Part shown: positions 23,792-47,938 of the stretch, one piece after another | Position numbering within the stretch: the first letter of the stretch is position 1 | Layout of the letters: each line of letters starts with the position of its first letter | DNA from: Peronospora farinosa | Taxonomy: Eukaryota; Oomycota; Peronosporomycetes; Peronosporales; Peronosporaceae | Direction of reading: 5' to 3' | Length of the DNA: 64,000 bases | NCBI GenBank assembly: GCA_947646735.1 | Contig: CANTFK010000800.1 | Coordinates: 539,827-603,826, forward strand | Program-made: the position numbers and the translations under genes | Notes under the pieces: model-generated | Database searches by the model: none | What the model was told of the DNA's origin: nothing | The model's input: the letters and a program-made list of their open reading frames with translations, nothing else

Positions 23792-26700
23792 TTGGAACGG
23801 AGGTCCGGGTCCCCCGGTGGCAGCCCAACCTTCCAGTCCTCCTGCGCTACGCGCACGGTTAAATGCCACCACTACGAGTGGTGATTCACGTCTGATTATT
23901 GTCAGTTTACATGTCGCCGGCGTCCGGCGACCTCTGCGAGCACTCCTGGACTCAGGAGCAACAAACAATTTCTTTCGTGAATCTTGTTTGTCGATGCTGC
24001 CTCCCAGCATTCAGGTCCGTGAGGGACCTGGCCAAGTCGTCGTCAAGTTGGCTGACGGGAAACCACACCGCGTATCGCGGCGCGAAGTGTCGTTGCCGTA
24101 TACGTTTGATGGCTTTCGCAGTAATGATGATTTCTTGGTGATCGCGATGAATTATGCATTCGATTGCATACTGGGCATGCCATGGTTGGCACGTTATAAG
24201 CCCCAGATCGACTGGTTAGCCAGATCAGTGAGACGTCGACGCAAGTTCGATGTCAGTGAAGTGTTTACCCATCTCTTGGTATCTCCAAGTGACTGGCCAA
24301 ACGTCACAGTCGTGGATCGCGATTCCACGACGTTGGCGGTGCACAGAGCGAGCGATGGCCCTCTCTGCACTGCTTGTGCTGTTATTCGGGACACAAGTGA
24401 CAGTGACTCCTCGCTACAGAGCGAAGAGGACGACGAGGACGACGCGGTCGAACAGGGGTTCCCGCGCGTCATTAATGCGGTTGAACAGGGGTTCCCGCAC
24501 GTGAATGCAGTGGTTGAACCGGGGTTCCCATCTGCACCTATTGTGGTCGAGCAGGGGCTCCCACAAGGGCATTGTGGCGACGAGCAAGAGCTCGCCAGCG
24601 AGTGTGACGTGGACGGACAGGAGTCCTCACGCGAGAGCATGATGGTCGAACCGGGGTACCCATCATCACCCACTGTGGTCGAACCGAGGTTCCCACATGG
24701 GCATATTGTGGTCGAGCAGTGGCTCCCACACGAGTACAACGTGGACGGACAGGAGTCCCCACGCGAGAGCATGATGGTCGAACCAGGGTTCCCATCATCA
24801 CCCACTTTGGTCGAACCGAGGTTCCCACATGGGCATACTGTGGTTGAGCAGGGGCTCCCACGCGGGTTTACGGCGGCCGAGCAGGAGCTACCGCATCAAG
24901 TGTCGACGGTCGAGTTTGGGGTACTCCCGTCCAGTGTCTCCGGCATCTTGGATGACGACATCCAGTGCCTAGAGGGGGGTGATGGTTTATCACCTGACTG
25001 CGGTTCGCCAGCTTCGAGTAGTGACTCGAAGCACGATGGGGACAACAGCACCGAGAATATAGCGTTGGAATGTGTCCACGCTATCGTGTACGTGGAAGGG
25101 AGTCCACAAAGGCGCCAATATATCGAGGTCGAGAGTCCTCCTCGTAATGCGTCTTCCATTACAAGTCTTCCAGGGCTTTCCTGGAAGCATTTCCTACGTG
25201 ACCTTAAGGGAGGCACTGTGGAACAAGTGTGTCTAATCACCAACGAGGTGGTTACCGTGGCAAACGAGGAGCATATGGCGCGTCCTCAAAGCGCTGAGCC
25301 GAAGTCTGCGCGTGAAGAAAGGTTTGCATCACAGTCATGGGAGGCCCTGCGAGAGTCTGGTAACCCCGTCTACGACATTGCTCGTGAGTATGCAGACGTG
25401 TTCCCGGACAAGATCCCGGCTGAACTTCCTGCGGACCGCGGTGTTCGGCACGAGATTGATCTCGTGCCAGGGTCGAAGTATTGTGTGACACGGCAGTGGC
25501 CGTTGCCTCGAGATCAAGTCGAAGCTATTGACGCATTCTTTGAAGGTCGCCGCAAAGCGGGTCATGTGCGGGAGAGTATCTCACCACATTCGAGTCCAAC
25601 CTTCTGCGTGAAGAAGGCTACGGGAGGCTGGCGGATAGTGCATGCGTTCAATAAATTGAATGATGCCACTATTCCTGCGCAAACGCCAATTCCCAGGAAG
25701 GACATGGTGCTGAATTCCATGTCAGGTAGTGTCATCTTCAGTGCCATCGACTTGACCGATGGCTTTTACCAGATTTTGATGCGCCCGAGCGATATCCCAC
25801 TCACCGCGGTGAGCACCCCGAGTGGCATGTTATGGGAGTGGCTGGTAATGCCACAAGGGTTGAAGAACGCTCCGGCCACTTTCAATCGCATGGTGTCTCA
25901 AGTGTTGAGACCTCTTCGGAACTTTGCCCCAAGTTATTTTGACGATATCTTCGTCCATAGTCGCGCCGAGGGCAACCTCAACGATGTCCAAGTTCACCTT
26001 CAACACCTGAAGCAAGTGTTTCAAGTTATGCGGGACAACAAGTTGTACGCGAATCTCAAGAAGTGTGTCTTTTGTGCACCGGAGATTCCGGTGTTAGGTT
26101 GCTATGTGAGTAAATCGGGAGTTCGAGCTGATCCAGAGAAGGTGTCGTCCATCTGTTCTTGGCCCACGCCCAAGAACCCTACGGAGTTGCGTCAGTGGCT
26201 CGGCTTGGCTAATTATTTGCACAAGTATACGAAGGATTATGCTGGTTCTATCCAGCCTTTGTCGTCACTCTTGAAGAAAGACGCCACGTGGTTGTGGCGT
26301 CCCGAGCACCAAGCAGCCTTCGAAGCAGTAAAGAAGAGCCTAGCGTCAGCGCCAGTCCTGGTCCTACCAGACGATTCCAAGCCGTTCCACGTGGTTTGCG
26401 ACGCCAGTGATTTTGCAATCGGTTGTGCCCTCATGCAATTTGATGATGAGGGCCGTGAACGAGTCGTGAGTTATCAGTCGCGACAGATGAAGCCAGCTGA
26501 GAAGAACTATCCGGTTCACGACAAGGAGTTATTAGCGATGCGCTATGCACTCATCAAGTTTCGCGTGCATCTCCTTGGTGAAAGTACGTTTGCTTTGTAC
26601 ACCGATCATGCATCGCTGCGCACAGCGATGAAGAGCCCACACCTGTCCCAACGGATGGCACGATGGCTCTCATTCTTCTCTGAGTACAACTTCGTCGTGC

Positions 26701-29333
26701 ATTACAAGCCAGGCAAGACCAATATTCTCGCTGACGCCTTGTCACGACGTTCCGACTACGATCCTCGGACTGCTCTGAGTCGCCAGGCTACTGATGACGA
26801 GGACGATGATGACCGATGTGCAATGTGTGTATCGCTGAACTTAACTCGGGTTACACCCGAGCCGTGTTTATTTGATGAGATCGTCGCGGCGTACAAGGGC
26901 GATTCAGATTATGCAGACATTATCGAGTATCTGCGTGCTCCCAGCGATGCTGCACTGGGAGCATTATCCCGTACCAAGCGCGACCATATTCATCGATACA
27001 GTTTAGATGGCGATTTGCTTCTGTATAGCATCGACCAATTCGATGCTCCTCGCACGGTGATTGCCAATGACATGGATTTGCGTGCAAGAATCATTCACGA
27101 GTATCACGATGCTCCTGCTGGCGGCCATTTAGGCCGCGAAAAGACTTTCGCGGCTGTGTCTCGAGACTTCTTCTGGCCCCACATGTATAAGTGGGTACGC
27201 AACTGGATCCGAACGTGCGAAATATGCCAGCGTGTGAAGCCATCTCCATCGTCACAGGCTCCCTTGCGATCGTTGCCAATTGCAGCAGAGGCCTGGAGAT
27301 CAGTTTCGATGGACTTTATCTTCGGGCTTGCGCCCGATAGCCAAGCTCGAACGGGCATCTTGGTCTTTGTTGACAGATTCAGCAAGATGACACATCTCGT
27401 GCCTGTTCACGATAAGGTCACCGCGGCAGAGACCGCGGCGCACTTCATCGACGCGGTGTTCCGTCATCATGGCCTTCCAGAAAACATTGTTTCGGACCGT
27501 GATCCGCGATTTACGTCCGCATTTTGGACATCACTTTTCGAGCTCCTCGGGACAAAACTGCTGATGTCGACGGCAGCCCATCCGGAAACGGATGGGCAGA
27601 CCGAGCGCGTGAACCGAGTCCTCGAAGATGTTCTTCGGAGTTATGCTACGTCATTTACAAGTTGGAGTGCATTTTTACCACTCGCTGAGTTCGCACTCAA
27701 CAACGCCGTACACGCGTCAACAGGGTTGACGCCATTTTTTGTGAATTCGGCTCGTCACCCTCGTGTTCCTACTGTCCTGGCCGTGGGGCGACCCACAACA
27801 CCTAGTGGCTCCACTCTGGGGGGGGATAAAGGTGATAAACAAGGATCGAGTGCAGCTCACGGTATTTTGAGCGCGAATGCAGTAACACGATCCAAGGCAA
27901 AGACGGCCATTTTGACGCCATCAGACGTGGCGTCCCCATTAGCTCGATGGACTGCGCAGACATTGATTGACCCGTCTTCGGGTAAGCGTTCCCCTACTGC
28001 CAACTACGCGCCGATTGAGTCGGCGCGACCAATTGATGACATGGCCGTGTCGGAATTTATACTCCAACGTCAAGCCATCACCAGGTTTGTACGCGACTCA
28101 CTACAAACTGCTGTAGACCTACAGAAGGAGAACGCTGACAAACATGGAAGAAAGAACATGAGCAAGTTTGAGAAAGGTGACCGTGTATTATTATCGACGG
28201 AAGGTTTAAGGGATTCTGCGGTCACTAATCTGGGCGCGAATAAACTCGCGCCACGCTTCATCGGTCCATTCAAGGTTCTGAAGGCAATTGGCGACGCTTA
28301 TACACTCGACGTCCCCTCTTCACTGCGACTCCACCCGACATTCTATGTCGGGCGGCTGAAGGAATATCGTCCGGCTACGCTTCACGGTTTGGCTCCGACG
28401 CCGGCTTCAGGGGTTCGTAAGTCGAACGGCCTTCCCGTCGCGCTCGACGCGCCGATGACATGGGGCGGGGTCTCGATCCCGTCTGAACCTGACCAAGCAT
28501 CTGGCGCTCCAGAATCCTTATCCGCTCGAGCAGTTCACGGTTCGACTGCCGGGTCTCACTCGAAGTCTTCTCCGCTTGGGCAGCACGTTCACTGGCAGCC
28601 TCAGCCTCCAGCCGAGCATCGGCAGCTATATTCACGGCCTGATCAACATCGTCCTGAGCAACCAGGACGCCAGCTCTACCACCGCGAGAGCCCTCCTCCG
28701 CTTGTTGATGCGGAGGGACAGGTGCGCTGGATTGTAGACCGCATTGTGGGTCACGAGGACCCTCCACAACCATTACTGCAGTCGGCTCATGAGAAGCGTG
28801 CGGTTCCATCCGTGCGTAGGTACCGAGTACGTTGGCTTGGATTCCCTCCCGATCAGGATACATGGGAACCACGTTCCTCGCTCCTTCGTGACGTTCCAGA
28901 TGTGGTTCTGTCGTATGAAGCCACGAAGTCGGACTATTCCAAGGCGGGCGAGCACGCGAACGCTCTCGTGACAAACGAGAGCGGTAAGGAGATTCACGTT
29001 GTCGGAAACGGGAACGATGACAAGAACGAGAACGATGTCGCGAACGCAAACGATGTCGCGAACGAGATCGATGCCGTGATCGAGAATGTCGCGGTGAATA
29101 CATATCACGATTGCGAGGCGAGAATCGCGCAACTGGACGGGCAGGCGAACGTGTCGCTGCCATGCGCTGATGACCCCGCGGAGATCGACTCCGCTGTCGC
29201 GAGTGGTGCCGCCAGCAGGGCGCACCAAGAACGTTGTAGAGCTTCATGCTCGATTCCATCAAGACCTTTCCCGCGCAGTTTTCGAAATCGGCGGAAGTGT
29301 TCCCGCATCATGTCCAGTGAGTCCGGAGCGTGA
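23754..29333 (+). CDS. pol: Pol polyprotein, element F
   Basis: About 1,860 codons from the frameshift site; no own ATG is needed. Order: protease ([11 protein letters not shown] near residue 65), a spacer with VEPGFP-type repeats, RT ([50 protein letters not shown]), one RNase H ([23 protein letters not shown]), integrase (HHCC with [13 protein letters not shown] and CEICQ; triad in [27 protein letters not shown]), a long spacer, then chromodomain ([19 protein letters not shown]). All main catalytic residues appear present. The tail after the chromodomain is low-complexity and overlaps an antisense ORF. Only one RNase H, unlike A, B and C. Confidence 0.95.
24440..24890 (+). repeat. Coding repeat in pol spacer (VEPGFP units)
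   Basis: About a dozen imperfect units such as [30 protein letters not shown] between protease and RT, with a larger duplication of about 130 bp (24610-24730 and 24740-24855) carrying [14 protein letters not shown]. Probably a flexible linker. Confidence 0.85.
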
Positions 29334-30599: not shown

Positions 30600-33000
30600 A
30601 TGGATTCTTCCCCATCTTCTTCGGCTTCCAAATCTGTGGCCCTCCCCAGCTCAGATGATCCCAGCTCCGTCCCTCCTATGAATACATTGGTCATTTCGGG
30701 ATCCGAGCCGTTTCGTGCCACCCCAGGCCGGTCCGATGGACCACCAATTCTGCTCCCATCTACGCGAATTGAGTTACCGCCGGTGGTGGATCGGCAAACT
30801 TTGGCATCCTCTATTACGGCGATCTATGATCGCTTGGACGCTCAAACTGCCATCGTGGACAGCTATCGTTCTTTGGAGGAAGAGTTGCGGGAGCAGAAGG
30901 TGCGAGGTGATCGGCTGAAGCGTGAACTTCAATCCTTCCGGGACGTAGCGCCTCCTCTGTCCGAGTACGTTTAAAAAATCGGTAGCACCGCCGCTAAGAA
31001 CAATACCAACATGCGATCCACAAGGCCGAAACTTTCGAGGAAGAATTGGACCAGCGAGGAGATCAATCCTGTTAAATTGCAAGCTTGAAATCCGCCCTGT
31101 TCAAGGCTAATGCGGCGACTCAACATACGCAGGAAAGACACCGACGGGAGTTGGCCGTTGTTGAACAGATTCTGACAGGACAGTTCCAACTTCAGCAAGC
31201 TTCTCTTCAGAATCGGCTGGATAAGCTTCAGACTGATCACGACTATCACCTCGGGGAAAGTACTCGCAAGGATGTGGCCTTGGACCAGCTACGTCGAGAG
31301 ATCGCGGATCGCGAGATGGAGCGTGATAGGGCCGTCGGTGATCGGGACTCTCTTCGATCGCACTTGGCCCAGCTAGCGTCTGGATCACTTCCAATACCGC
31401 CAGTGGGTCATTCCGTGTCCGTTACCTCGGCATCTCCCGGGTGCAAGCGTTCTTCGTCTACCCCGATATTGGACCCTCCTCCCAAGCGTTCGCGAACCGC
31501 GGACCTCTCTTCTCCTCCAGCTCCATCGGGTTCTGTCCAAGGGACTCCTTCGATCTCTGAGGATATTCCAGCGCGATCCGCCGCTACAACGCGATCCGCC
31601 AGTCCAACGCGATCCGCCAATCTAGCGCGATCCGCCACCTCAGCGCGATCCGCCGCTACAACGCGATCCGCCAATTCAGCGTGATCAGGGGGACGCAACT
31701 TAGACGTTCCAAAGTCGAAGGAGAAAACCAAGAGCAAGAATTCTACACCACAGAAGGCCAAAAGCAAGAAGGGAATTCTCACTTCTTCGAAGATCAAATG
31801 CAAGAAGAAAAATCCTGCACCTTCACGCTCGAAAGGCAAAAGAAAATTCTTACGCCTCCTTCTTCCGAGTCGAGCGACGATGAAGAGTTTTACGATTCTG
31901 GGGACTCTCTGCTTGCTGCTTTATCCGGATCGCGTTCTTCCTCCAGGCGCCGCGGCTCGGCGCCTGGTAACTCTGCTCACACTGGATCACACGGTTCCCC
32001 CATTACTATCGACGTTTCCAGTTCGAAGTTTGGCGTTACTGCCAGCTTCGCCTGCACAACCCCGTACCGCTTCGGGTAAAGTCTCGAAAGTGGACCTTTT
32101 CAGAGAGCCCTCTAGTGATTCCGAGGTTGCTGTCAGCGTCACCAGTGAATCTCGAGAGAAGATCAACATTTTGCTCCTGCCGCAAGAGTACACTGACCTG
32201 CCGGATACACAAGGGCCAAGAAATCACTGGATCCCTGAGTATCGCAATCGGACTCTTCGATCGTCAGCCCAAGTTGCTCCATGGTCGTCTCGACGAATCA
32301 GTCTAACCAGCGTGGCTGAGTTGGAAGTCGAATATTTGTACAAGCACCTGTCCAACCCAAGGGGGTATCCTTTCCCGGTTGCACCTACGTCTCGAGCGCC
32401 GCCATCCGATTCAATGTGGATACCGAGATTGGTAACTTCGGAGCAGATCGCCGCTCTTTATGCCCAAGAACCCTGGAAAGATCTCAATGTGCCGATTACC
32501 CCGGTCTCATTCCCAGTAACTGGGTGGTTCGCTGAGTTGAAGCAACTCTACCTCGAGTTCGAGGATCGGCACCGACAGGCGCTGTGGGAATCAACCCATC
32601 CGCTGTATTTGTCGACAAAGCAACGGGACAACGATCCCGGCATAGCGAAATTTTGCAGAGAGCGCAAGCAGCGTCGGTCGCGATCCGGGCCCCGTTGGAA
32701 AACCGTACTTCGATTTGTCTTGCGAGGCATGATCATGGGACATTGTGATTTGGACATCTTGTTGGACCCCTTTTTTCTCCATTTCCCTTTCTCCTCGGAG
32801 ATACCAGTGTGGTACCCTGGTTTGGGACAACAACGGAAAAACATCCCCAACCTGATGGACTGCACTGACGATGTTGGATGCTGCAGAACCTTGGCGTAAC
32901 CAGTTCCGATTTGCGATCGCGGATCATCCAGGATCTTCTCTTGCCCGCCTTTCCCGTAAGTTTTTTTTCGCAGTATTATCCGTGATCAGAGAACATTGCT
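30600..33000 (+). pseudogene. Antisense ORF of family C (coiled-coil + GHCDLDI domain)
   Basis: Starts with an ATG 81 nt inside the LTR end (MDSSPSSSASKSVALPSS). Order: Ser/Pro-rich start; coiled coil (YRSLEEELREQKVRGDRLKR; RRELAVVEQILTGQFQLQQA; LDQLRREIADREMERDRAV); an ARSATTRS-type repeat made of GCGATCC units (31568-31682); an acidic Ser patch (SSESSDDEEF). The conserved domain follows (QEPWKDLNV, TGWFAELKQLY, RQALWESTH, KQRRSRSGPRW, GHCDLDILLDPFF), then LDAAEPWRNQ and HPGSSLARLSRKF in another frame. There are about four frame changes and a stop at 30972, so the copy is dead. It lies opposite pol, which begins about 180 bp further on. Confidence 0.7.
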
Positions 33001-33181: not shown

Positions 33182-34330
33182 TTATCCACCCGTTCCTTCC
33201 TCATGCGACTGCATTACTTCAAAACGGTTCCTGCTTGCCCGATCGCGATCAAACTCCTGTAATAGGGCACCACAATTCAAATCTACCTCGTCAACCCAGG
33301 ATGGGTCACTGATTCCTTTCCATTGTACAAGAAATTCTCGATGTATTCTGCCGTAGCGAGTCTTTCTTCCGGATCGCATATCCACAATCTTCTCCAACTC
33401 AAATTCGTCGGGATTTAAACTTTAACTCCAACTATCTTCCGGTAACATGGCTTCATCAAAATCTAAGCGATTCGATTCATCAAACTCCAGCAAATGTTTT
33501 GAGCGATCCGGGAACTTCCTCACTCGTTTCAACTTCGAGATATGAACCACTGGGAATAAACGATACGGCGTACCCGCGATCTCCAAACGTACAGCGTGTT
33601 CTCCACATATTTCCGCAACTCTAAAAGGTCCATGCCACATGTGAGCTAATTTCCTGACATATCCATCTTTCACTCGATCTAAATAAAGCCATAATTGTGA
33701 TCCCTTTTCGATCCCATGTATTTCCGGATCAGCATTATGCTGTTCGGCCCGATCTTGGATCGCGACTTTGAGACGATCGTTCACTACAGCTCTTGCACGT
33801 TGATATTGGCTTTGTACATGATACCGACATCTCCGTGGCTCCGAATCACGTCGTTTCGTGCTTCCCAATGGTAAGGTGGCTTCCAATGTTGATCGTGGAT
33901 CCCAGCCGTGAATCAAGTAGAATGGGGTATCTCTTCGGACGCGATCTTGAGCGGTATTAAGCGCAAATGTTAATCTCTCTGCGTATTCGTCCCAATCCCT
34001 TTGACCTACGTCTGTTACATACATCTTCAAGTCTCGCGTCAATATTTGTACCATTCGCTCCGCCGTTCCATTTGCTTGGGGTCGATATGCCATAGTAGCG
34101 CGCTGTTTCTGTCCTGCGATCCGATTGAATGCTCTGAAAAAATCTGACATTAACCCAGGTTCTCTATCGTGACGGATCGCTTCACTCGCACCGAATCTCC
34201 GAAAGACACATTCCTCATAATTTTCTTCGATTGTCTGCGCAGTTTTAGACGAACTTGCCTTCGCGATCACATACCCGGAGAAAAGATCCACCCACAGCAA
34301 TAATTCTGTATTTCCTTTAAAAGACCTTGG
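33182..34330 (-). pseudogene. Integrase and chromodomain, family C copy 1
   Basis: Chromodomain (FLVQWKGISDPSWVDEVDL) at 33182-33420 with a stop before it. Upstream is the integrase core with VDLFSGYVIAK, HDREPGLMSDFF and NGTAERMVQILTR, and a C-terminal part WLYLDRVKDGYVRKLAH. The DDE triad region looks intact, but the stop at 33420 removes the chromodomain. Confidence 0.9.
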
Positions 34331-35798
34331 TAGCGAAGGAATATGATCTATAGCAATTATTTAAAACGGATATGTTGCTTGTACATTCCCCGGAGATTCA
34401 CCGCGGATCGTGGGACGCCCTTTCCCCGTTGAGCAGTCAACACACTCCCCCACATAACGTTGTACACTCCGATACAACCCTCTCCAATGGAAATTCGATC
34501 GAATTCTTTGGTAGGTCCTGCCGACTCCTTGATGTCCACCTTCTAAGCTTGTATGATAGTTATGTAAGAAATCCTGCTGCAAGAGTTCTGGTACGACCAA
34601 ACGTAACAATTCCTCACGCCTTCAACTTCATCGGCCGACTTGGGGCAGAAAAATAACAGTCCACTTTCGTCCACTTCATAATCCGGCGCGATCCGAGCAC
34701 ATAATTTTGCCTCCTCATTATTCAGACGGTTTACGTCCCCGATTAGATACTCTTTCAACTTGGCGATCCAACTTTCCTCTTCTTGTGCTTGTTTTATTCG
34801 CTCAATCCGAACTTTCTGTACAATTTCTTCCTGCATGGGCTCTGGTTGTTGCCGTCTTCGAGCCGCTGATCTGGTAATCGCGACCACTTTGACGACCCGA
34901 TCAACACATTTTGGCGTCAACAGTTCACCCAACCGGTTCACTAACATCAACTCTTGCAATTCTTGATCCGACGTGATCCTCGTACCTTTTTCTTGATGCA
35001 ACGCTGTGCTCGCCAACCGATCTGCACTTTGGTTCCAATCTCGTTTCATATGTAGGAACTCGTGGATCGGCCACGATCGAAGCTTCTCCATTGCTCTATA
35101 CCGTAACAACTGCAAACTAGGATCCTTGCAATCAATTTCGCCCCGCATCTGTCGGATCACTAGATTGGAATCACCTCAAATAATAACGCGTCCCCTAGTC
35201 TGGTCCGCTAATAAGTCAAAGCTATAAGCAACCCTCTATATTCTGCTTCATTCACGGTCAGACCGGTAGCGAATTCAAAAGCGCAGCCACGATCGTCCAT
35301 TCCGGCAATCTCCACACGATTGCACTGTACGCTCCGCCTTTCTTCTTCACCCTGGCCGATCCATCGAAACTGACGACTAAAAGACTTTCATTTTCTTCCA
35401 CCGTAGGCGGCGGCATACTTATCGTCTGCCTTGGCTGCTTACGTGGAGCGATCGCAATCATCACTTCGTCCACTTCTTCACGGGGGGTTATACTCGCAGC
35501 CAGCGTACCCAATATTTCGTCCTCACCCTTCTCACTTCGGCGGATTTCCAGCGTCCAGTTTGAAAGGAGCGCAGCCCATCTTCCTAATCTTCCGTTGAGA
35601 CCCGAAGATTGTAACAGCCAAGCCAGCGTTTAATATCGCGTAAGCACAGTGATCTCACGTGAAACGAGCATCGTGTAGCAAATATCCAGTATCCGAAGGA
35701 GGGCCAAAATCTCTTTCTCCACCATTCCGTAGTTAACTTCGTTTGGCTTCAACGTACGACTTGAGAAAGTAACAGGCCAATATATTTCTTCATGTTCT
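34331..35798 (-). pseudogene. RNase H and integrase zinc finger, family C copy 1 (5' part lost)
   Basis: Integrase HHCC with HNYHTSLEGGHQGVGRTY and CVDCSTGKG (complete). Upstream is the second RNase H: SFDGSARVKKKGG (first Asp kept), the NLVIRQMRGEIDC region and NQSADRLASTALHQ. Frame breaks lie near 34360, 34600 and 35160-35258. It ends at 35798 in the native RNase H, where LTR-A3 starts. The RT, protease and gag of this copy are not in the window. Confidence 0.85.
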
Positions 35799-36877
35799 TG
35801 TGGTGGAGTGGGTTCTCAAAATTGTATGATGAGACCCCAAACCACTCACTGTGCCGGACTGCCGACTGTCGGAGGGGGTACCCCGATGCCGCGTATGAAC
35901 CTTCTCTCACCTTGTGTACCCGTCGGCTGGCGGGTTGCACTCTTCGGAGGACTTGGTGAGGATGTAGACGTCTGCCTTGAGGGAGGTAGACCTGGGGGGG
36001 CTCGAGTGGATATGCTTTACTCGGTGGGCCGGTAGGTGGCCACTCGATCGACCTTGTCGAGAGTGGACTTAGAGCCCAATTCTTCAGGGGCGCTTGTCGT
36101 CCCTGGCCTTTTCCTTCTTGTTTCAGGGGTATTAACCACCTGACCTTTACGTTGCTCCCGGACCTTGAGGTGAGGGAGACCGCTTCCGATAGCGGGTCTT
36201 GGGGGTGTTGCTACTCGAACGAGCTCACAGGCCAAATATATCCTGGAGCTCTATTCACCCTTGAACTTCGCTACGCAACTGTCTTCGACGGGGGGCCAAA
36301 ATATATCCCTTCCTGGAACAGTGAGTAACTTAGAACAAGTCCTTCTTGGGTGACGGAGTCGTGCCACGTAGATCGCAAATTGAGTAGTATTTAATATAGT
36401 CCTATCCTTTTAACTCCTTTACTCTATCCTTGCCTGAAGCTCTGATTCCTTGCGTCGACTGGTCTGATCCTTGTATTAACTGGTCCGGAGTCGCTGAACC
36501 CCGAGGGGCCGAGGTCGACCAATGAGGGACCGGGTCGACCAATGAGGGACCCAGGTCAACCAATGAGGGACCCAGGTCAACCGACGAGGGACCGGGTCGA
36601 CCGATGAGGGACCCAGGTCGACCGATGAGGGACCCGGGTCTACCAACGAGGGGCCAGGTCGATCAATGAGCGGCCATGATCAACTCCCTTTGGTACCGGT
36701 TAACCGGTACCCTGATACTGATTTTTCTTCGGCGAATCCTGCGGATTGTCCTCCATCAACGGTCGCTCCCCTTCGAGGCCCCTGTCTCTCTGGTCCCCTG
36801 TCCCTGACCCACGGCCTATACTCCGAATCCAACTGGAGTCCGGGACCTCCATATCACAAAATTAGCACTTCACCACA
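35799..36877 (-). repeat. LTR, family A, copy 3 (3' LTR)
   Basis: TGTGGTGGAGTGGGTTCTC ... AGCACTTCACCACA. It contains the CCGCTTCCGATAGCGG stem-loop (near 36180), a promoter with TATA and CTCAATTTGCG (36364-36400, minus strand) and the U3 minisatellite (36500-36665). On the right is the polypurine tract (minus strand TGCAGGGGGCGGC). It is the 3' LTR of the A element ending at 47938. The left flank is C pol, and it shares no target duplication with the right flank of LTR-A4. Confidence 0.92.
36364..36400 (-). promoter_or_regulatory. LTR-A3 core promoter
   Basis: Minus strand: CTATATTAAATAC, then CTCAATTTGCG, then TACGTGGCAC. The match to the oomycete Inr/FPR consensus is intact here, whereas in LTR-A4 the corresponding site (47401-47441) has two changes (TTGAGATCT and CTACATTAAA). 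Confidence 0.5.
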
Positions 36878-36923: not shown

Positions 36924-38894
36924 ATGTCTTCACTTCCTTCGTCACGTAGGTCCTTCATTGTCCCCTTTGTAGCTCCTCCACCTCTAACTCGTGTCTGTCC
37001 AGCCATGTCTTCCCCTGGTTCTGATCCACCGTCTGCTGACCCACCGTCCGCTTATCCACCGACTGAAGAGCCGACCTCGGTCGCCCCAGCGCCTTCAATC
37101 GCCCCTGGTTTTAACCCCTCATCTGCTGGCCCACCGTCCGCTGACCCACCGTCTGAAGAGCCGACTTAAATCGCCGTCGCGCCTTCGGTTGCCTCTCCAT
37201 GTAGAGAGGCGTCCTTGGCCGACCTTCCCGGGCCGGTGTCTTCGCCGTTGAGTGCTGCTGAAACTGTTGTCGTTCACAGCTCTCCTGTTTCCACCGCTTT
37301 GCCTCCTGCCGAGACAGCAGATGCTCCTGTCACGCCGACCCCCATGGTTGACCGTCCGTCTTCCGCACCCGTCAACGTACGGGCAGCTCTGCGGGAATTG
37401 CAAGCTCTCGCGGACGCCCATTCCCGCCGCATCGAAGACTGCGAGGGTCGGCTAGGTGTCCTTCCCCCTTCGGCCGCCTTGTTGGCCACTCGTTGTGAGC
37501 GGTTGGAGGAGGCACTGCGCGACAAGTCCCGGCTGGTGGTCCAACTTCACGAAGCTCTCCAGCGCGAGACTGCACTGGTGGACCGTCTGCGATGGAAGAT
37601 CGACCACATCCGAAGCCGGTACTCGCTTCTCGCCGCAGAGCTCGACCATGTCGACTTCTCTGACGGGCCACCTCCGGGACCAGCTACTCCTTCGGCAGCT
37701 TCGCCCCCGGTCGCATGTTCCCCTTCACGGCCGGCGAAAGCTCTTGGTAAACGGTCCCGGCGGCCGTCACCCCGGGTACCCGCCAAAGTCTCCAAGCTTC
37801 CGAAGCCTGACGCCTCTGCGATGCCACCGTCGGCGGTCTCTGGTGGTCGTTCCCCTGTCGTGCTTGAGTCTTCGGACGACGACCTCAGCGACGACAGCGA
37901 GACCCTTCGGGCGGCTCTGGCCAAGTCTCGTTCTGCTAGTCGGCGCCCAGCCAGCGCGAACCCTGTACGTCTTCCGTCGACGTCCACTCCTCCATCGAGG
38001 GCCACCTCGGCTACCGGCCTCTCGTTGAAACGGGCGATGTTCGGGACATCGGACTCGGAGACCGAGTCGTCTGCGGAGAAAAACAAGAGTGCGCTTCCTG
38101 TCGCGGACAACACTTCGCCCCTTCTGGCCGACTCCAGCCTGCTTCCCAGAGACGCCATGATCCCTGGATAAATGCAGTCGAAGATCTTCTCCGCCGCGGA
38201 AGTGGCACCTTGGACGGTCGACCTGGTCAATTCGTGGTGCATTGTTACAATGTCTTCCACAGACTTGGTCGACCAGCTGGATCTACCTTGGGGCTGGTTT
38301 GGCCCTCCGGACGGAAACCTCGACCGGCCCCCCAAATGGAAGAGGTCGTTGGTGAACCCTCCAATGATCCAGAGATTGCTCGCGGCGGAACCTTGGGTGG
38401 AAGCTCGTGTTCCCATGCAGCCCGTGTCCTTCCGACCTGTTGGCTGGTTCGCCCAGTTGGCAGCGGCCTACATCCAGTTTGACGAAGAGCATAGTCAAGC
38501 TCTTTGGGAGGCGACCCACTGCTTGTGGATCTCCAAGGACCAAGCGCGAGCGAACTCTTTCCTCGCGTCCTACTACAACGCGCGGAAGAAGCGTCGGAGT
38601 CGGGCAACTCGAGCTTGGCGGGAGGTGGTCGACCTCATCTTCATTGGGATGAGCAAGGGCCACTGCGATCTCGACATCTTCCTGGATCCCTTCTTCCGTC
38701 ATCTTCCTCGAACCCGCCGTGTGGTTTATTGGTTCCCTGGTCGTGAAGAGGGGTCGGACCCGGTCGACCTGCTTGAGGCCCTTCGGGTGTCGGATTCCGC
38801 GTGGCCGTGGTTCACCCAGGATCGTTTGTCTTCTGTGCCCCATCCTGGCGCTCTAGTTCCACGCCTCAAAGGCAAGTTTGGGCCATCCGTTTAG
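36924..38894 (+). pseudogene. Antisense ORF of family A (coiled-coil + GHCDLDI domain)
   Basis: One reading frame of about 657 codons broken only by two stops (37167-37169 and 38169-38171). It starts with an ATG 47 nt inside the LTR end (MSSLPSSRRSFIVPF). Order: Pro/Ser-rich repeats (SADPPS); coiled coil (LRELQALADAHSRRIEDCE; RCERLEEALRDKSRLVVQLH); basic and acidic Ser-rich middle (KALGKRSRRPSPR; ESSDDDLSDDSE). The conserved C-terminal domain has VAPWTVDLV, AEPWVEARV, VGWFAQLAAAY, SQALWEATH, ARKKRRSRATRAW, GHCDLDIFLDPFF, VYWFPG and VPRLKGKFGPSV*. It converges on pol, 260 bp away. This best-preserved frame suggests a real protein until recently. Function unknown. Confidence 0.75.
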
Positions 38895-39152: not shown

Positions 39153-39703
39153 TTTTCATGGCTTTGCATTACTTCGAAGCGTTTATGGCTTGTGTTCTTG
39201 CGCTCGAAGTCCCGGAGTAAGGCTCCGCAATTCAGATCCACTTTGTCCACCCACGAGGGGTCAGGGTGTCCCTTCTATTGCACGAGGAATTCTCGTTGTT
39301 GCCTCCCATACCGAGTCTTCTTGCCTGTACGACTCTCTAAAATTTCTTCGACTTCATACTCGCCCTCTTCCAATTCCCGCACCCAGCTGTCTTCTGGTAA
39401 CAGACATTCATCGAAGTCGACTCGATCTGTTTCATCCACTTTCAGATCGCTGTTCGGTCGATCGGGGAACTCTCTGACGGGCTTGAGCTTGGAGATGTGC
39501 ACGATTGGGAATAGTCTGTATTCTGTACCTCGTAAATCCAGACGTACTGCATGATCTCCGACTAATTCTCGGACTCGGAACGGTCCGTGCCATAGGTGGG
39601 CCAATTTTTTGGCATGCCCCTCCTTCACTCGGTCTAAGTATAGCCATACCCGGGTCCCTGGCTGAATTTCGTGGCCGACTACCCCTTCATTTTGTGCTTG
39701 CAC
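39153..39703 (-). pseudogene. Integrase C-terminus and chromodomain, element A
   Basis: Reads WLYLDRVKEGHAKKLAHLWH, VRLDLRGTEYRLFPIVHISK, VDETDRVDFDECLLPEDSW and the chromodomain (EYEVEEILESRTGKKTRYGR), with a stop in the WKG region at about 39275 (LVQ* before KGHPDPSW). It is joined to the upstream integrase by a frameshift at 39690-39703. Confidence 0.85.
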
Positions 39704-41864
39704 CCAAACCTGTAGCCGCCCGTAAATTCTCGTTGACTTGGTCTCTTTCTCGCTGATAGTGACTCTGAATCCGATATCTCCATCTCCGAGGTCCTGAGTC
39801 TCGACGTCGAGTGTTCACCACCGGTAACATAGTCTCAAGAGTGGTCCTAGCATCCCATCCATGTACCAGATAGAACGGTGTTTCCTCACGTACTCTGTCT
39901 TGAGCCGTATTTAACGCGAACGTTAATCGTTCCGCGTATTCATCCCAGTCTCGCTGTCCCGCGTCGGCTACGTACATCTTGAGCGATCTTGTTAGAGTCT
40001 GGACCGTTCTCTCCGCAGTGCCGTTCGCTTGAGGTCGGTAGGCCATGGTCGCTCTCTGACGTTGACCCACCATACGACTGAACGCTCGGAAGAAGTCCGA
40101 CATAAACCCCGGTTCCCGATCGTGACGGATCGTCTCACTGGCACCAAAACGGCGGAAAACGCATTCTTCATATCCCTCAGCCACTGTCTGGGCTGTCCGT
40201 GACGCACTTGCTTTAGACATCACATAACCTGTGAACAGGTCGACCCAGATCAGTAGTTCCGTATTTCCTTTATGTGACTTGGGGAGAGATGGTATGTGGT
40301 CCATCGCGATAATTTGGAAGGGGTACGTCGCTTCAACATTCCCCGGAGACTTCCCTTGTAAAGTGGGTCTCCCTTTCCCAGTCTCAAAATCCATGCACTG
40401 ACCCACATATTTCTGAACACTCCGGAACAGACCCCTCCAATGGCAATATCGTCGGATCCGATGATAAGTACGCCCGATCCCCTGATGGCCGCCTTCCAAA
40501 CTCGTATGATAATGATGGAGGACGTCGGCTTGGAGACTCTCAGGTATCACCAATCTGGCAATTATGTCTCGGTCGTCTCCCTTGATTCTCTGGCCGGGGC
40601 AGTACACCAGCAGTCCCTCTTCACTTATCTCGTAATCCTCCGACATTTTGCTGCAGTTTCTGGCCGCTTCCACCGACAAGTCTTTCCAGTCTCCCTTCAA
40701 ATATGCCTTCAACTCGCGTACCCAGCTCTCCTCTTCTTGCGCATCTCGGATCCTATCCATCCGGAGTTGTTGTACCACATCTTCTTGCATGACCTCTCCC
40801 GATATTTTGACAGGGAACCGTGATCTCGTCACCGCAGATACCTTGACCGACTGACCCCGGTCTCTAGGGACCAACACCTCTGGCAGCCGATTGATTGTTT
40901 CTAGACCTGACCACTCTCCTCTTGGTATCGACTCGACCCCTTGCTGCTGATGTAAAGCCGCACTGGCCAACTGGTCTGCACTCTGATTCCAGTCTCGTTT
41001 CACATGTAAGACTGCATGGGTGGGCCACGACAGGAGCCTACTCAACGCCTTGGCCCGCAACGGGGATAGACCTGAAGCTTTGCATTCAATCTCTCCACGC
41101 ATCTGTCTTATAACCAGATTGGAGTCTCCACAAATAATCAAACGCCGTCGCTCCATTGGCTCCAACAGGTCAAAACCCAGTAACATGCCCTCATATTCCG
41201 CTTCATTCACCGTAGACTTGTCGAGATATTTCGATGCAGCTGCAACTATAGTCCATGCAGGGAGTCTCCACACAATAGCGCTGCAAGCACCTCCCCCTTG
41301 TTTCACCCGGGCCGACCCATCGAAACTCATCACATACAGTTCTTCATTTAGTTCCACTGTGGGCGTCGGTAGGTCGACCACTTGCCTGGATTGCTTCTTG
41401 GGAGCAATTGACGCCAGAATTGAGTCTACATTCTCTCGAGGCGTGATGCTGGCTGCTAACGCCCCCAGTACCTGGTCCTCACCTTTCTTGCATTTCACAA
41501 TCTCCAAAGTCCACTGTGACAACAGAGCGGCCCAGTTTCCTAAGCGACCTTGCAACCCCGAAGACTTCACTAGCCAGGCTAGTGTAGAATGCCTCGTCAG
41601 AACCTTGAGAGGTCGGGTGACCAACATCGTGAAGCAAGTTTCCAATATCCGTAACAACGCCAGCACTTCCTTTTCTACTGTGCTATAGTTCACCTCGTTT
41701 GACTTGAGGGTTCGGCCCGTAAACATTACCGGCATGTACATGCCGTCGTAATTTTGCACCAACGACGCCGAGCATACTTGCGTAGACAATGATGACCGCC
41801 TCTCTAGCCGGGTCGAAATGTCGTAGGATGGGCGCCGTAGCAATCTTGTTCTTGAGCATGGCAA
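39687..41864 (-). pseudogene. Second RNase H and integrase, element A
   Basis: 725 codons open. The second RNase H has the full catalytic set: SFDGSARVKQGGG, NEAEYEGMLLGF, ICGDSNLVIRQ, NQSADQLAS. The integrase core is intact (AMDHIPSLPKS, HDREPGFMSDFF, NGTAERTVQTL), but the zinc-finger end reads CMDFETGKG where relatives have CVDCETGKG: the last Cys is Phe. The N-terminus enters the native RNase H after a frameshift near 41780. By family, this region degrades RNA in hybrids and integrates the copy. Confidence 0.9.
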
Positions 41865-42549
41865 ACGCTACTTGTACCTTCGACCATTTTTCTTCGTCGT
41901 CTTCCTGGGCCGCCACTTCCTCGTTAGCCTTCAATTTGCACCTCCAAGCGTGAAAATCCACCTCTCTCAGTTCGTAAAGGATCGACGCGTATATGGCATA
42001 ATCTTCGATGTACCTGCTGTAGTAATTTAGGCTTCCTAGAAAGGACTGCATAGCCTTCAGCGTTGTCGGTAGAGGTAGGTCGACCAAAGACTGAAGATCT
42101 TTTGGGTGGGCCTCTAGTCCCCCTTTGGAAACTCGATGTCCAAGATACTCGACCTTCCGACATCCCCACGTACTCTTGACGGCACTGACCGACAAATTCC
42201 AATAGTCACACACGTCTAGCAGCCGCTCCACTTTCTGGCATAATACGTCCCACGATTCGGCCGGAACAAGTATATCGTCAATGTATGATCGTCGACCCAA
42301 TATAGAGAGGCCCGATTTTGCATCGGGTTCCCCTGTTGCGAACAAATCCTCTGTTTCCTCTGTGGCCGCCCCTGGCAAAATCCGTAAGAATCCATATAAC
42401 GCATTATCCAACAAACTTTGATATATCTGAGGCGCATTCCTAAGCCCAAAAGGCATCCGAAGCCATTCAAATAATCCCAGCGGTGTAACGAAAGCTGAGA
42501 TTAGTCTCGCCCTTTCGGTCATACTGACGACCCAAAAACCACTCGCCAT
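41683..42549 (-). pseudogene. Reverse transcriptase C-half, element A
   Basis: Reads MASGFWVVSMTERARLISAF, LFEWLRMPFGLRNAPQIYQS, YIDDILVPAESW (catalytic DD), VEYLGHRVSKGGLEAHPKD and SFLGSLNYYSRYIEDYAIYA, then VIIVYAS of the native RNase H, again without the usual first Asp. An indel near 42570 separates it from the RT fingers. Confidence 0.9.
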
Positions 42550-42550
42550 A

Positions 42551-44473
42551 TCAAGGGAACAGTACCATAAAGCTCCTATTAAATTCGTTAATCAACGGCA
42601 TCGGGTATACCATGAGCTGGGTGAGATCATTCACCAACCGATAGTCGATACATAATCGAATATCGACCCCATTCTTCTTCACGATAATTACAATTGGGCT
42701 GGCCCATGGCGAGGTGGAAGGCTGAATGATCTTTGCTGATAACAGTCCCTTGATCAGGTCGGCTAGCTTCTCTCTGAATTGAGGGGCCACCTTTCGTACG
42801 CGTTGCGCGATCGGTCTTGCGTTCCCCACATCGATATCGCATATCGCTCCTCGGGCGGCCGGGGGTAAGGCGTTACCTTTGCCCATCAGCATATGTCGTT
42901 TCTTCCATATTATTTGTCGCAACCGGTCCACCTCTTCGGGAGCGTTCCCATCTGGATCTGGAATCTGTATATCTTCTAACGCAATGCCTTCGGATGAGGG
43001 GTCCATTTCCGGTACGACCGCCCACCCTGGCCTTATGTCCTCGGCCCAAAGTTCTCCACTCTCGAAAGAACACACCTGGTCATCTGCCTGTAACAAGTCT
43101 ACCGGTTTGACTTCCTTCTCATTGGTGGTGGTCACTGCATGTAGGTCCTCTTCAAATACACTCCGCTTTTGGGCGGTCCCTTCCTGCCAATTCACCCTCT
43201 CTTCGCACAGTTGTTCTTCACTGTCGGGTACCGGTTGGTGCGTTATATTCATCATTGGGGTTGGGGCCTGCGGTCGCTGTAAGATGTGTGACGGAGTCTT
43301 ATACTCTGGTCTCTCCACTGGTGGCCTCTCTTCCTCTTCCGTTGGGTCGACCTGATGGTCGACTTGGTCGGTGGTAGATTCATAAGCCAGATTTAGCCAT
43401 TCCGCATATCTTCGAGAGCCTACCGAGACAAACCCTGGCGTTCTCGGAACTTGCTCCCTAGTCAACCACATACCTACCTTGGTATCTTCATACAATGTTA
43501 AGGGGCGAGGGCTGACATTGGTTATCTTCAAAATCGGTCGACGTCCTATCCCTTGTATCATGGTGGTCACCCATCGTTCACTCCTCGTGACCCACAATTT
43601 CCACTGTTCTGAGGTCGACCTTTTAAGAGGCACTTCCGTACATCCTCCAACGGATATATGTACATACCGACCCAATTTCACATCCGATACTCGCGTATTA
43701 TACAGTGTCCTTCGCCCAGTCAACTGTACCCTGACCTCATCGGGGAGGCAGAGAGTTCCGTCGGCCAAGTCTAACCGGATACCGGCTGGGACCATGAAGT
43801 CCATCCCCAAAATTGCATCTTGGCCTACCATAGGGCCTACCCACACCTTAAAGATGTACACCAAGTTCCCATTCAGAGTGACCTTGATGCGAGTGCGTCC
43901 CTCCGTGGTGTATACGGCTTCCCCAATACTAATACATTCTTGTCGTTCACTTTCATCAATTTGGCAGCCTACCTTACGAGCAAAGGCGATATCCAGAATG
44001 GATATCTCGGCACCAGTATCGAACAACAAATTTGCATGGTCGTTGTTGACCTTTCCAGAGGCTTTCGCTTGCCTGAACCATTTAGTAGGGGCGTGGTATT
44101 TCCAGTACCCCCTAGACTCGCCTGGCAATAAGTCCAACTCCATTACTGAACTTTCTCGAACAAAATTATTAGGTTCATTCAAAGAAGCAACATGAACCAC
44201 AGGGTAATTTCCAATCTTCGATATATTTCCAATCTTAACTGGAATACCCGTCTCATCCTTGGGCTGTTTCTCCACATATGCAAAGATGCAACAATTAGAA
44301 CGCTCGGCTCGTACCAGATTCAAACCTGGCGAGCGTCCTAATTTGCCATCTTCTCGAGTTTCTCCGGGAACATCACTGCATGCTTGGCTGAGTCGTACCA
44401 TTGACGGAACAAATTGTAGAACTCCTCCATCTGGCACTTCCCAATCTCTTGAATCTCTCCACAAACCCGGCAT
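42551..44473 (-). pseudogene. Protease and RT fingers, element A
   Basis: 640 codons open in the -1 frame relative to gag. Protease: LLFDTGAEISILDIAFA with AILGMDFMVPAGIRLD as the second conserved block. A spacer (GFVSVGSRRYAEWLNLAY) is followed by the RT fingers KKNGVDIRLCIDYRLVND. It ends after PLINEF because about 11 nt are missing compared with B at 42570-42590; this frameshift alone would stop Pol. Confidence 0.9.
44298..44347 (-). promoter_or_regulatory. gag-pol -1 frameshift signal, element A
   Basis: Minus strand: GGCAAAT directly before the gag stop TAG (44340-44338), then a 9-bp stem GGACGCTCG/CGAGCGTTC (one G-U pair) enclosing CCAG/CTGG. The heptamer is weaker than in B and C (GTTAAAY), but the stem and the overlap of frames are the same. 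Confidence 0.55.
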
Positions 44474-44739
44474 ACAAACAGGCAGCGATCAGACGGGTGA
44501 CCCTTCCTTCCACAGCGGTCGCAGGTCAATCTTTTCCAGCAATTCAGATCTCCATGTTTCTTGGACCCGCATTAAGCACATCTCGTGTTTGGGGTCGCTG
44601 ATGATGGGCCGGGTCGCTGGTCTACCGCCTGGTGATGTTGGTCGGCCTCCCTGGTCGGCCGATTCTTTGAGAACCTCACACTTGGGTCCCTTCCTGCTTC
44701 TTTCTCCATAAGGTAGACTCGTCTTAACTCTCCTTCGTT
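44338..44739 (-). pseudogene. gag zinc-knuckle region, element A
   Basis: Contains CDRCGRKGHPSDRC and the CRVCGEIQEIGKC motif, ending LEKMAN*. Upstream (44530-44739) is the linker with a first Cys/His cluster, interrupted by a stop near 44572. It overlaps pol in the -1 frame. Confidence 0.8.
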
Positions 44740-45743
44740 TTATGAAGAATCTGGGCTGGAAACTTCAGAGCTCGAGTCTTCCAGGGGCGTCCGTACTGCA
44801 TGTATGGAGCGGCGATTTAGATCTCTCGTCCTCTCGGGTAGTGCCGGTGCCTTCTGACGAAACTTGTTTGATCCAAACAGCATCTTGCCTCGTCTTGCCT
44901 TCGTCCGCTGACATGCTGTCAATACTTCCTCCAATTCTTCCACGTCCGCCAGACGCAGCATAGTCAACTTGTCTGCTAGCTCTGGGTCGTCCACCGTCAA
45001 AATGTAGTGATCGACGTGATCCTTCTGAATCTTGGGCGACCCATCCTTAATCTTCATCTTCGCCCTGAGTCCAAGCACATTCAGGCGGTACAGATAATCC
45101 AGCGGGGTCTCTTCCGACCTTTTCTTCGCATGGTAGTACTGGCGGGCGACCGGTACCCCCGTACCACAGAACCGAATCATGAACTCTTGGATTAAGTCCT
45201 TCCAGTTTCCTCGGACTGAGCGACCCAGTTGACGGTACAAATTCTGTGCCGGTCCAGTCAGCAATCCTCCAAAAACGAGACATCGTTCATCATCTGGTGC
45301 TTGGTCTCTTATGAATGCTGTCTTGACCGTCGATACCCAGCTGCGCGCTCTGTCTTCGTCTTGGTCTCTTCCATGAAATTCTTTAAGATCCGAGGTCGCC
45401 GATAGTTTGATGCGAGGGACCATATTTGGCATCTGTCCCAGCGCTGCGTTCGCCATCATCAACTGAGGTCCCCTCAAATCCATGTTGTCAGGGTCGAACT
45501 CACATATCGACGTCGGTCATCGTGTGGCCTCTTGGCATTTGTATGCCTGGATGCTGGTCATGGTGAGCGGTCGTCCTTTGCGCCTCTGGTCTTCCTCCTG
45601 CTGCATTCCCGTTAGGGTGTGCCCGCGGTACTTGGCGTTCATTCAAAAATCTTGCCATCGCCGCGTCGAAGAGGGTCTGCAGATCACCTACCGGGTAGGT
45701 AGGTCCTTCCCCCCAGCATCTTCGTCACGGGGCAGAGCAAATT
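44740..45743 (-). pseudogene. gag capsid region, element A
   Basis: 247 codons open (44740-45483). It starts MDLRGPQLMMANAALGQMPN and has the retrotransposon capsid core: KEFHGRDQDEDRARSWVSTV, FGGLLTGPAQNLYRQLGR, WKDLIQEFMIRFCGTG, YYHAKKRSEETPLDYLYRLN. The link to the N-terminal part (45484-45743) is broken by frame changes. Confidence 0.9.
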
Positions 45744-46840
45744 TCATCTTTTTCCTTGCTGATTTCCCATTGGCTGAAAATCGGAATGATCTTCATTCTT
45801 GCCACGCGTCGCCGTTTCAAGACCATTTGGCTCCTGCTCCGCGCTGCGCGCTCGGTCCTGTAGCAGCGCCGCTCCAATAGGGCCTAGGGGCATCCTAGTG
45901 ACCGACCCAGTTGAGGACGATCCTGGGGACCACGGTGCTGCTTCCCTCTGGCCGCTTGGCATCCGGTGTTGAGATGGGTCTTGATTCGCCCCTGGGTGGC
46001 CGGCGGCTCCGTACATGTGGGGACCCACCGTGATGTCCTGAAGCGTCATCTGGCTGTCCTTGGACCGCATGTGTGTAGGTGTAATCAGAGGTGGGTGTTC
46101 CGTTGCTGGTGTGGTACCCACCAGGATCGACAGACGCTTGTACATATGCTCTAACGCTTTTGTGATTTTGTCGAACCCCAGGGATAGCAGGTCGTCCGGG
46201 TCGAACTGACCTGCGACCATGTTCGCTTCACGAAGCATGGTGACCAGCGCTGTGATCGCGTCCGTGACGGAGTGCAGCCGTGGCAGGGTCGACACCGGCC
46301 CAGTGAGTTGACCCAGCTGCCGGATCTCCAGGATCTTCGCGACGGGGTCGCTCTCCAGGAACGCGTTCAGCTTGCGTTGGTGGTAGGCCCTCGTGACATC
46401 AGCGTCTGTCCATGACGCCAGTCCTGCCTTCTCGGGGCCTATCGACTTGGTGTTTCCGGGTGTCTTCATCCGGAACTTCGTCGGCTTGGATTGCGCGATC
46501 TTGTTTTGTTGTTTTTTGGGGACCTTAGCCTCTCGGTTTTCACCGTCGGCTGATGGTCCTCTGGATCATGATAGGCGTCATGAACCAAGGTGTCCTCTAC
46601 GAGGACATAGGGATGGTATTTAGGTTTCTCTTTAATAAATTCAACCTCGACCATGTTGACCGTGCCCCTCCCAAGGCCCGGTCGGTCCTTCGATCCATTG
46701 TTTGTTTCTTCTTGAGTCACTGGCGATCGGTCTTCCAGTGGCTTCTCGGTCTTGTGCTCCTTCTTGATGTGATCATCTTTATCGTCTTGGGACTCGCGGT
46801 GAAATCCCGCGTCTTCCGAAGATCCGGGCACGCGCACCAT
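45744..46840 (-). pseudogene. gag N-terminal region, element A
   Basis: Begins at the ATG beside the LTR (46840-46838, MVRVPGSSEDAGFHRE), which lies inside the primer-binding site. A charged region follows (HIKKEHKTEKPLEDR; NMVEVEFIKEKPKYHPY). A one-base loss in an A-run near 46515 shifts the frame; it continues to 45744 (SIGPEKAGLASWTDADV; ESDPVAKILEIRQL). The frame is also open upstream into the LTR, so a longer start cannot be excluded. Confidence 0.8.
46822..46839 (-). promoter_or_regulatory. tRNA primer-binding site, element A
   Basis: TGGTGCGCGTGCCCGGAT, 1 nt after the LTR end. It overlaps the apparent gag start codon (ATGG). Confidence 0.65.
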
Positions 46841-47938
46841 TGTGGTGGAGTGGGTTCTCAAAATTGTATGATGAGACCCCAAACCACTCACTGTGCCGGA
46901 CTGCCGACTGTCGGAGGGGGTACCCCGATGCCGCGTATGAACCTTCTCTCACCTTGTGTACCCGTCGGCTGGCGGGTTGCACTCTTCGGAGGACTTGGTG
47001 ACGATGTAGATGTCTGCCTTGAGGGAGGTAGACCTGGGGGGCCTCGAGTGGATATGCTTCACTCGGTGGGCCGGTAGGTGGCCACTCGATCGACCTTGTC
47101 GAGAGTGGACTTAGAGCCAATTCTTCAGGGGCGCTTGTCGTCCCTGGCCTTTTCCTTCTTGTTTCAGGGGTATTAACCACCTGACCTTTACGTTGCTCCC
47201 GGACCTTGAGGTGAGGGAGACCGCTTCCGATAGCGGGTCTTGGGGGTGTTGCTACTCGAACGAGCTCACAGGCCAAATATATCCTGGAGCTCTATTCACC
47301 CTTGAACTTCGCTACGCAACTGTCTTCGACGGGGGGCCAAAATATATCCCTTCCCGGAACAGTGAGTAACTCAGAACAAGTCCTTCTTGGGTGACGGAGT
47401 CGTGCCACGTAGATCTCAAATTGAGTAGTATTTAATGTAGTCCTATCCTTTTAACTCCTTTACTCTATCCTTGCCTGAAGCTCTGATTCCTTGCGTCGAC
47501 TGGTCTGATCCTTGTATTAACTGGTCCGGAGTCGCTGAACCCCGAGGGGCCGAGGTCGACCAATGAGGGACCGAGTCGACCAATGAGGGACCCAGGTCAA
47601 CCAATGAGGGACCCAGGTCAACCGACGAGGGACCAGGTCTACCAATGAGGGACCGGGTCGACCAACGAGGGACCCAGATCGACCGATGAGGGACCCGGGT
47701 CTACCAACGAGGGGCCAGGTCGATCAAGGAGCGGCCATGATCAACTCCCTTTGGTACCGGTTAACCGGTACCCTGATACTGATTTTTCTTCGGCGAATCC
47801 TGCGGATTGTCCTCCACCAACGGTCGCTCCCCTTCGAGGCCCCTGTCTCTCTGGTCCCCTGTCCCTGACCCACGGCCTATACTCTAAATCCAACTGGAGT
47901 CCGGGACCTCCATATCACAAAATTAGCACTTCACCACA
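46841..47938 (-). repeat. LTR, family A, copy 4 (5' LTR)
   Basis: TGTGGTGGAGTGGGTTCTC ... AGCACTTCACCACA, closely similar to LTR-A3 except in the minisatellite (47540-47725) and a few substitutions. The right flank is inside LTR-B5 near its TATA-like site. Confidence 0.92.

Follow-up and report, generated by a model that had tools for sequence, protein, structure and literature searches.

Here we report that an open reading frame (ORF) lying antisense to pol in Gypsy elements of the oomycete Peronospora farinosa is, as judged from its position, coding constraint, protein architecture and repeated deletion, a genuine accessory gene carried by Ty3/Gypsy retrotransposons of the Chronos type. The gene was characterised in a window of 64,000 nucleotides (assembly GCA_947646735.1, contig CANTFK010000800.1, positions 539,827 to 603,826 of the forward strand; coordinates below are those of the window) and across the 46.85-Mb genome. 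Antisense ORFs between pol and the 3' long terminal repeat (LTR) are a known kind (PMC7264820 and PMC11963269, each in part), and no description of this antisense protein family, of its domain or of its presence in Chronos elements was found in the literature searched.

The original prediction placed four ORFs (14583-16833, 30600-33000, 36924-38894 and 56660-58806) at the same site, antisense between pol and the 3' LTR. All four window copies do lie there, on the strand opposite to pol and towards the 3' side of the element, and all four consist of coding-like sequence with the listed motifs, but none of the four frames is uninterrupted, each being broken by stops or frameshifts. The family C copy (36924-38894, plus strand; ORF reading and tblastn) runs from ATG to TAG with in-frame TAA codons at 37167 and 38169, and shares 95% identity with the open frame of locus L027 across 742 residues. 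Its conserved C-terminal domain (38154-38891, plus strand; genome search, alignment and AF2 model) carries the motif string IPG(Y)...VAPW...GWF...QALWE...KKRR...GHCDLDI...W(F/Y)PG...KF. The remainder of this element was annotated on the minus strand and comprises a 5' LTR (46840-47938) and a 3' LTR (35798-36877) that are 96.6% identical, a gag-like ORF named by position (44740-45516), an aspartic protease part (42551-44488; Pfam), a reverse transcriptase part (41683-42591; position and similarity between copies), and a pol segment with RT_RNaseH, a second RNase H (RVT_3), and integrase H2C2 and core domains (39687-41867; Pfam). Both LTRs contain arrays of a GGTCGACC-type repeat of about 20-21 bp (36492-36736 and 47533-47736), and related arrays are also found at 1305-1506 and 6266-6754.

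The other three copies were delimited by tblastn, all on the plus strand. With L022 as query, the first family A copy (14805-16827) was recovered as three pieces in three frames, with a frame change and stop near 15245, a frame change near 15930 and one further stop (domain at 16072-16647), and the second (56886-58798) as two pieces in two frames, with a frame change and stop near 57326 and no match past 58798 at the 3' end (domain at 58226-58819). The family B copy (30720-32966) was matched with the L009 protein of the related family D as three pieces in two frames; relative to that protein it has frame changes near 30985 and 32830 and three stops within the matched stretches (domain at 32300-32896). 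Pol is again on the opposite, minus strand, with an integrase core and SH3-like part in the family B element (33422-34360; Pfam) and an integrase part in the first family A element (17436-18233; similarity between copies).

Elsewhere in the window, a second, different Gypsy element (23727-29333, plus strand) has an open pol frame of 1868 codons. Near its 3' end lies an antisense frame of 310 codons (28375-29307, minus strand), Arg/Ser-rich and with a coil-like end, which overlaps repetitive pol sequence and may be an effect of composition. Two Copia gag-pol-like frames of 1051 and 696 codons, recognised by reading of their translations only, lie at 60738-63893 and 49293-51383 (both minus strand).

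The coupling of the antisense gene to pol was assessed from a list of 150 chromodomain (pol C-terminus) places, which was matched to 296 domain places in the genome and thereby avoids selection via the antisense gene. The domain was present 0.7-1.1 kb downstream of the chromodomain at 103 of the 150 listed places, on the opposite strand in 103/103, and was present at none of the 150 in the equal stretch upstream that served as control; the other 47 were without a domain among the domain places listed. The same orientation was found in all 23 loci that had been chosen by the antisense gene itself. Fourteen of these have a pol tail without interruption up to its usual end, with the pol stop 115-276 nt from the antisense stop; the two genes are arranged tail to tail. 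At its other end, the antisense gene of the family C window copy has its ATG 47 nt past the 3' LTR edge. When the LTR edge was located via the polypurine-tract motif, the first ATG was found at 46 nt in family C (three loci), 85 nt in D (five loci), 84 nt in E (one locus) and 320-323 nt in A (two loci); the motif was not found in L023-L025, and only a false place was matched in L028. L027 (family C) has a second in-frame ATG inside the LTR.

The host elements are classified as Chronos-type Gypsy elements by their dual RNase H and integrase-linked chromodomain. In the window segment 39687-41867 (minus strand), RT_RNaseH (E = 4.5e-16) and RVT_3 (E = 3.9e-11) both matched above the Pfam cut-off, as they did in L009, and the chromodomain (PF00385) was found in all three pol tails scanned (E = 1.6e-5, 7.2e-10 and 2.5e-7), at or above the curated cut-off. 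The assignment follows from the agreement of these domains with the marks of the oomycete Chronos clade, namely a dual RNase H, the second archaeal-like, and a chromodomain after the integrase (PMC5348765, in part). The main text of that publication contains no occurrence of 'antisense', 'additional ORF' or 'aORF'.

Genome searches with three window domains yielded at least 155, at least 150 and at least 150 scored matches, which together mark at least 296 separate places; some of these places are pieces of a single copy. Stop-free open frames of 905-973 codons occurred in 15 of 155 matches listed, which contradicts the possibility, raised with the original prediction, that no intact copy exists anywhere. 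The three families originally proposed (A, B and C) are all present, and our own identity-based grouping extends them to at least seven sequence groups (A, A2, B, B2, C, D and E). Loci L009-L028 were selected for long open frames and diversity and do not constitute a random sample. In L016-L018 (B2), compared with L009, the pol tail and the last part of the antisense protein are almost identical to family D, and the remainder of the domain is about 70% identical; by these identities, the B2 copies look like recombinants.

Protein searches returned 15, 13 and 54 relatives, with a best E-value of 1.6e-119 in 5.8 billion proteins; no relative was confirmed among the IMG/VR contigs searched. All relatives with a named organism come from Phytophthora, Peronospora and Nothophytophthora, three genera of the Peronosporaceae. 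Judged by the E-values of the relatives and the codon-level constraint described below, the likeness of the copies is more than chance. A few relatives are unusual. In P0022, which is probably a rearranged copy, the end of the antisense domain stands behind a reverse transcriptase and RNase H, on their strand and in their frame. P0023, a gene model of Phytophthora fragariaefolia in which a GRF zinc finger is joined to the domain, is either a gene-model artefact or a captured domain. P0016, P0018 and P0021 (871, 868 and 932 residues) derive from contigs of 2788, 2949 and 3333 bases, roughly the size of single mRNAs, which is only a hint that these contigs are transcripts.

Intact copies and relatives, including those from other Peronosporaceae, share one architecture, in which an N-terminal region that varies in length is followed by a long coiled coil, then by a Ser/Pro/basic linker, often with tandem repeats, and finally by a C-terminal domain of about 245 residues that starts with IPGY or LPGY. 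The motifs claimed for this domain are found at all four window places, and an 18-row alignment has 16 invariant columns, which include R-x-x-R-R, C-D-x-D, L-D-P-x-F, the W of W(Y/F)P, PW and a Tyr. Fold prediction with AF2 (32 sequences) gave a confident all-helical model of 257 residues (pLDDT 84, pTM 0.83), in which a 34-residue helix (137-170) bears a basic RKQRRSR stretch and the invariant R-x-x-R-R is located in the long helix. For the coiled coil, a model from 11 sequences shows two helices, one of 90 residues (44-133 in the L009 protein) and one of 150 (138-287), which form a rod of unreliable overall shape (pLDDT 74.8, pTM 0.25).

That the domain had not been recognised agrees with the searches, in which neither protein nor domain had a significant match in Pfam, PDB or BFVD, so that the domain is a confidently predicted structure without a detectable structural relative. 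No DNA-binding family was matched in the Pfam scans, which covered 18 domain sequences (E ≤ 10), nine window pieces (E ≤ 1) and eight long proteins (E ≤ 5). The linker contains a recurrent motif, acidic-[LMIFT]xxA[LMI]xx(S)R plus a following basic pair, which a loose pattern detects in 15 of 18 proteins (missing in B2_L018, P0024 and P0027) and a strict pattern in 10 of 16, compared with 0.00 in shuffles; shared ancestry rather than chance is the natural reading. Its sequence resembles the consensus of the ubiquitin-interacting motif (UIM); Pfam UIM was absent among the matches of the nine window pieces (E ≤ 1) and eight long proteins (E ≤ 5). Basic cores resembling a nuclear localisation signal (NLS) were found in 12 of 13 proteins, a number to be read against the 37-94% of shuffles in which composition alone yields them, and both the SIM-like and the NLS-like stretches are treated as leads only.

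The domain is under purifying selection in 12 of 14 pairs of copies, with dN/dS values of 0.08-0.31 (upper bootstrap limits 0.12-0.66; the pairs share sequences and are not independent, and several dS values are near saturation). Differences are concentrated at codon position 3, with p from 0.014 to 2e-20. A dN/dS near 1, which had been named as evidence against a selected protein, was obtained only in the two youngest pairs, L019/L020 (0.74 on 20 differences) and L021/L022 (1.93 on seven differences); both are indistinguishable from neutral, as expected of recent copies of the same family, and older pairs show clear constraint in every family that could be tested. In comparisons by identity group, median ratios were 0.58 within B2 (including the odd copy L017), 1.23 within A and 0.74 within E, and 0.40-0.43 for B-C and C-E. 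Constraint is weaker upstream of the domain (0.27-0.68 in eight pairs).

Codon periodicity was found on the LTR side of the gene in none of four pairs, and in the 180 nt after the antisense stop it was not significant in four of five pairs (p = 0.05 in one); in four of five pairs, pol DNA read in that phase had the periodicity that belongs to the pol frame. An overlapping sense-strand function as the source of the conservation is disfavoured by stops in all three pol-strand frames over the domain in 23/23 copies, although single open stretches reach up to 200 codons. The claim of past selection on the protein therefore stands as to selection and is modified as to time, in that, from these substitution patterns, selection on the protein looks to act while the elements replicate and not to be solely a matter of the past.

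The gene has also been lost repeatedly. Twelve of the 47 chromodomain places without a domain were inspected, and all twelve are deletion derivatives in which the domain is gone, save for its last 55 residues in L031. The deletions are bounded by the start of the antisense gene and the end of pol. At C-type places they extend from near the antisense ATG, or from the LTR repeats (L037 and L038), to a point between the antisense stop and the pol stop, the left side being diverged in L039; 43 residues are left at the E-type place (L029/L041, one place), and most of the domain has been removed at the D-type place L031. The pol frame is open at four of the twelve places (1126, 1396, 1761 and 1906 codons). 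Such losses are as expected of reverse-transcription deletions that spare the element in cis. Because the junctions are for the most part distinct, many of these copies may each stem from a single error of reverse transcription; several junctions fall at short overlaps. L032 and L033 have a near-identical junction (two bases apart) in unrelated flanks, the similarity of their flanks beginning at the LTR edge, and are on this evidence two independent insertions; this suggests that one gene-less form moved again, and the junction, which lies at a short homology, may also have arisen twice.

As to function, we tentatively favour as the simplest account, at somewhat less than an even chance, a trans-acting nuclear regulator that is expressed from an antisense promoter of the LTR, by analogy with GENE23/TRP28 or HBZ and without membership of their families. 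The 3' LTR would supply the promoter, the antisense mRNA would be translated, and the protein would oligomerise via its coiled coil and enter the nucleus, where the basic helix of the C-terminal domain may bind nucleic acid or chromatin. It would act in trans on the transcription or chromatin state of its own element, either by dampening or by countering host silencing. Gene-less copies could then live on the protein made by gene-keeping copies; the deletions at all twelve inspected places, four of them with pol frames over 1100 codons, and the junction shared by L032 and L033 are counted in favour. Counted against a regulator are the occurrence of a site like the oomycete Inr consensus upstream of the gene only in family D and one A2 copy, the lack of a match to any DNA-binding family in the Pfam scans, and the ease with which shuffled sequences yield NLS-like cores.

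The domain is conserved yet, by the distances estimated here, evolves faster than pol. In 43/43 between-family comparisons its dN exceeded that of the pol RNase H-integrase region 1.8-8.9 times, mostly 2.5-3.5 times, although recombination blurs some of these rate comparisons (A/A2 and B2/D). Between A and A2, dS is 0.5-1.5 in pol and 1.7-1.9 in the domain. The synonymous distance of pol between L024/L025 (A2) and L021 (A) is 0.5 over a long stretch and 1.5 over the second half, an unevenness that is a sign of exchange within pol. Outpacing pol at the amino-acid level is what a conflict with the host would be expected to produce, and it is conceivable, if unlikely, that the protein is a silencing suppressor which blocks small-RNA or chromatin silencing of LTR retrotransposons. 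In Phytophthora infestans, the Gypsy elements of highest abundance have small RNAs mapping to both of their strands (PMC3522703, in part), which is consistent with such a role; however, none of the known suppressor or dsRNA-binding families was matched in the Pfam scans, and faster evolution is also expected of a weakly constrained accessory gene.

The long coiled coil of the AF2 model and the coupling to a Chronos pol with a chromodomain could also point to a particle or integration cofactor, which would act beside the chromodomain and assist Gag or integrase during assembly, nuclear import or targeting. We regard this as distinctly unlikely, since an antisense gene with its own transcript would be an odd route to a stoichiometric particle part and gene-less copies with long pol frames exist, though help in trans is possible for these. 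Recurrent deletion is also compatible with a gene that is simply dispensable, and the protein might be an ancient hitchhiker, coding and once useful, which is now baggage lost at the pace of each family. The four broken window copies, the deletions with mostly different junctions at all twelve inspected places and the neutral appearance of the youngest pairs all fit this reading, but the long open frames in 15 of 155 matches listed, the constraint on older pairs in every family that could be tested and the relatives of the same architecture in other Peronosporaceae leave it a low probability. It is very improbable that the antisense RNA rather than the protein matters, as a dsRNA or transcriptional-interference device. 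A transcript at this place would indeed be complementary to the genomic RNA over the 3' end of the latter, as discussed for plants (PMC7264820, in part), but codon-position constraint and low dN/dS show that the amino-acid sequence is selected, so that a role of the RNA can only be additional.

Among the nearest counterparts of the antisense gene are those of plant elements. The parallel originally drawn with plant Tat-lineage elements is borne out in that the hosts combine a dual RNase H (Pfam) with an antisense gene. The aORF-3R of Retand/Tat elements (TRP28, PF04195; Retand, RIRE2) likewise lies antisense between pol and the 3' LTR of Gypsy elements with dual RNase H, and shares with the oomycete gene tandem repeats in the region and the lack of a known function; DNA binding of the plant proteins is suspected (all PMC11963269, in part). 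In contrast to TRP28, the oomycete protein had no match to PF04195 in the Pfam scans (18 domain sequences at E ≤ 10, nine window pieces at E ≤ 1 and eight long proteins at E ≤ 5); in whole-genome searches the PF04195 profile matched neither this genome nor any control genome, and that result is not counted as evidence. The oomycete helical domain has about 245 residues and the TRP28 profile 69 positions, and the host group and pol clade differ by literature. GENE23 of the maize element Grande, which is likened here by description, is also an accessory gene in antisense orientation within the internal region at the 3' side, and encodes a nuclear protein transcribed from its own promoter (PMC7264820, in part). 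Outside plants, Boty of Botrytis cinerea carries an ORF in antisense orientation at the corresponding site, from pol to the 3' LTR (PMC7264820, in part), again a likeness by description.

A further counterpart is HBZ of HTLV-1, an antisense gene that likewise adjoins the 3' LTR. Like the oomycete protein, HBZ has a coiled-coil part and a basic part. The oomycete protein matched no bZIP family at a significant E-value in the Pfam scans (only a partial match of E = 0.097 to the coil of P0020) and differs by its additional helical domain, which HBZ is not known to have. The antisense promoter of HTLV lies inside the 3' LTR (PMC7264820, in part), a trait for which the oomycete elements offer position only, the distance from the LTR edge to the ATG being 46-85 nt in families C, D and E.

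Antisense accessory genes of LTR retrotransposons are thus on record in flowering plants and in a single fungus, where no function is known for them, and an unrelated-looking, clearly selected protein at the same place in an oomycete lineage with a second RNase H turns them into a recurrent, testable pattern, for which related copies with and without the gene provide natural experiments within one genome. It is rather unlikely that Chronos elements combine a trans-acting antisense regulator of new fold with a two-level parasitism in which full copies make the protein and gene-less copies use it. If this were true, then, together with plant Tat/Retand elements and HTLV, an extra RNase H plus an antisense regulator next to the 3' LTR would represent a repeated evolutionary route of LTR elements.
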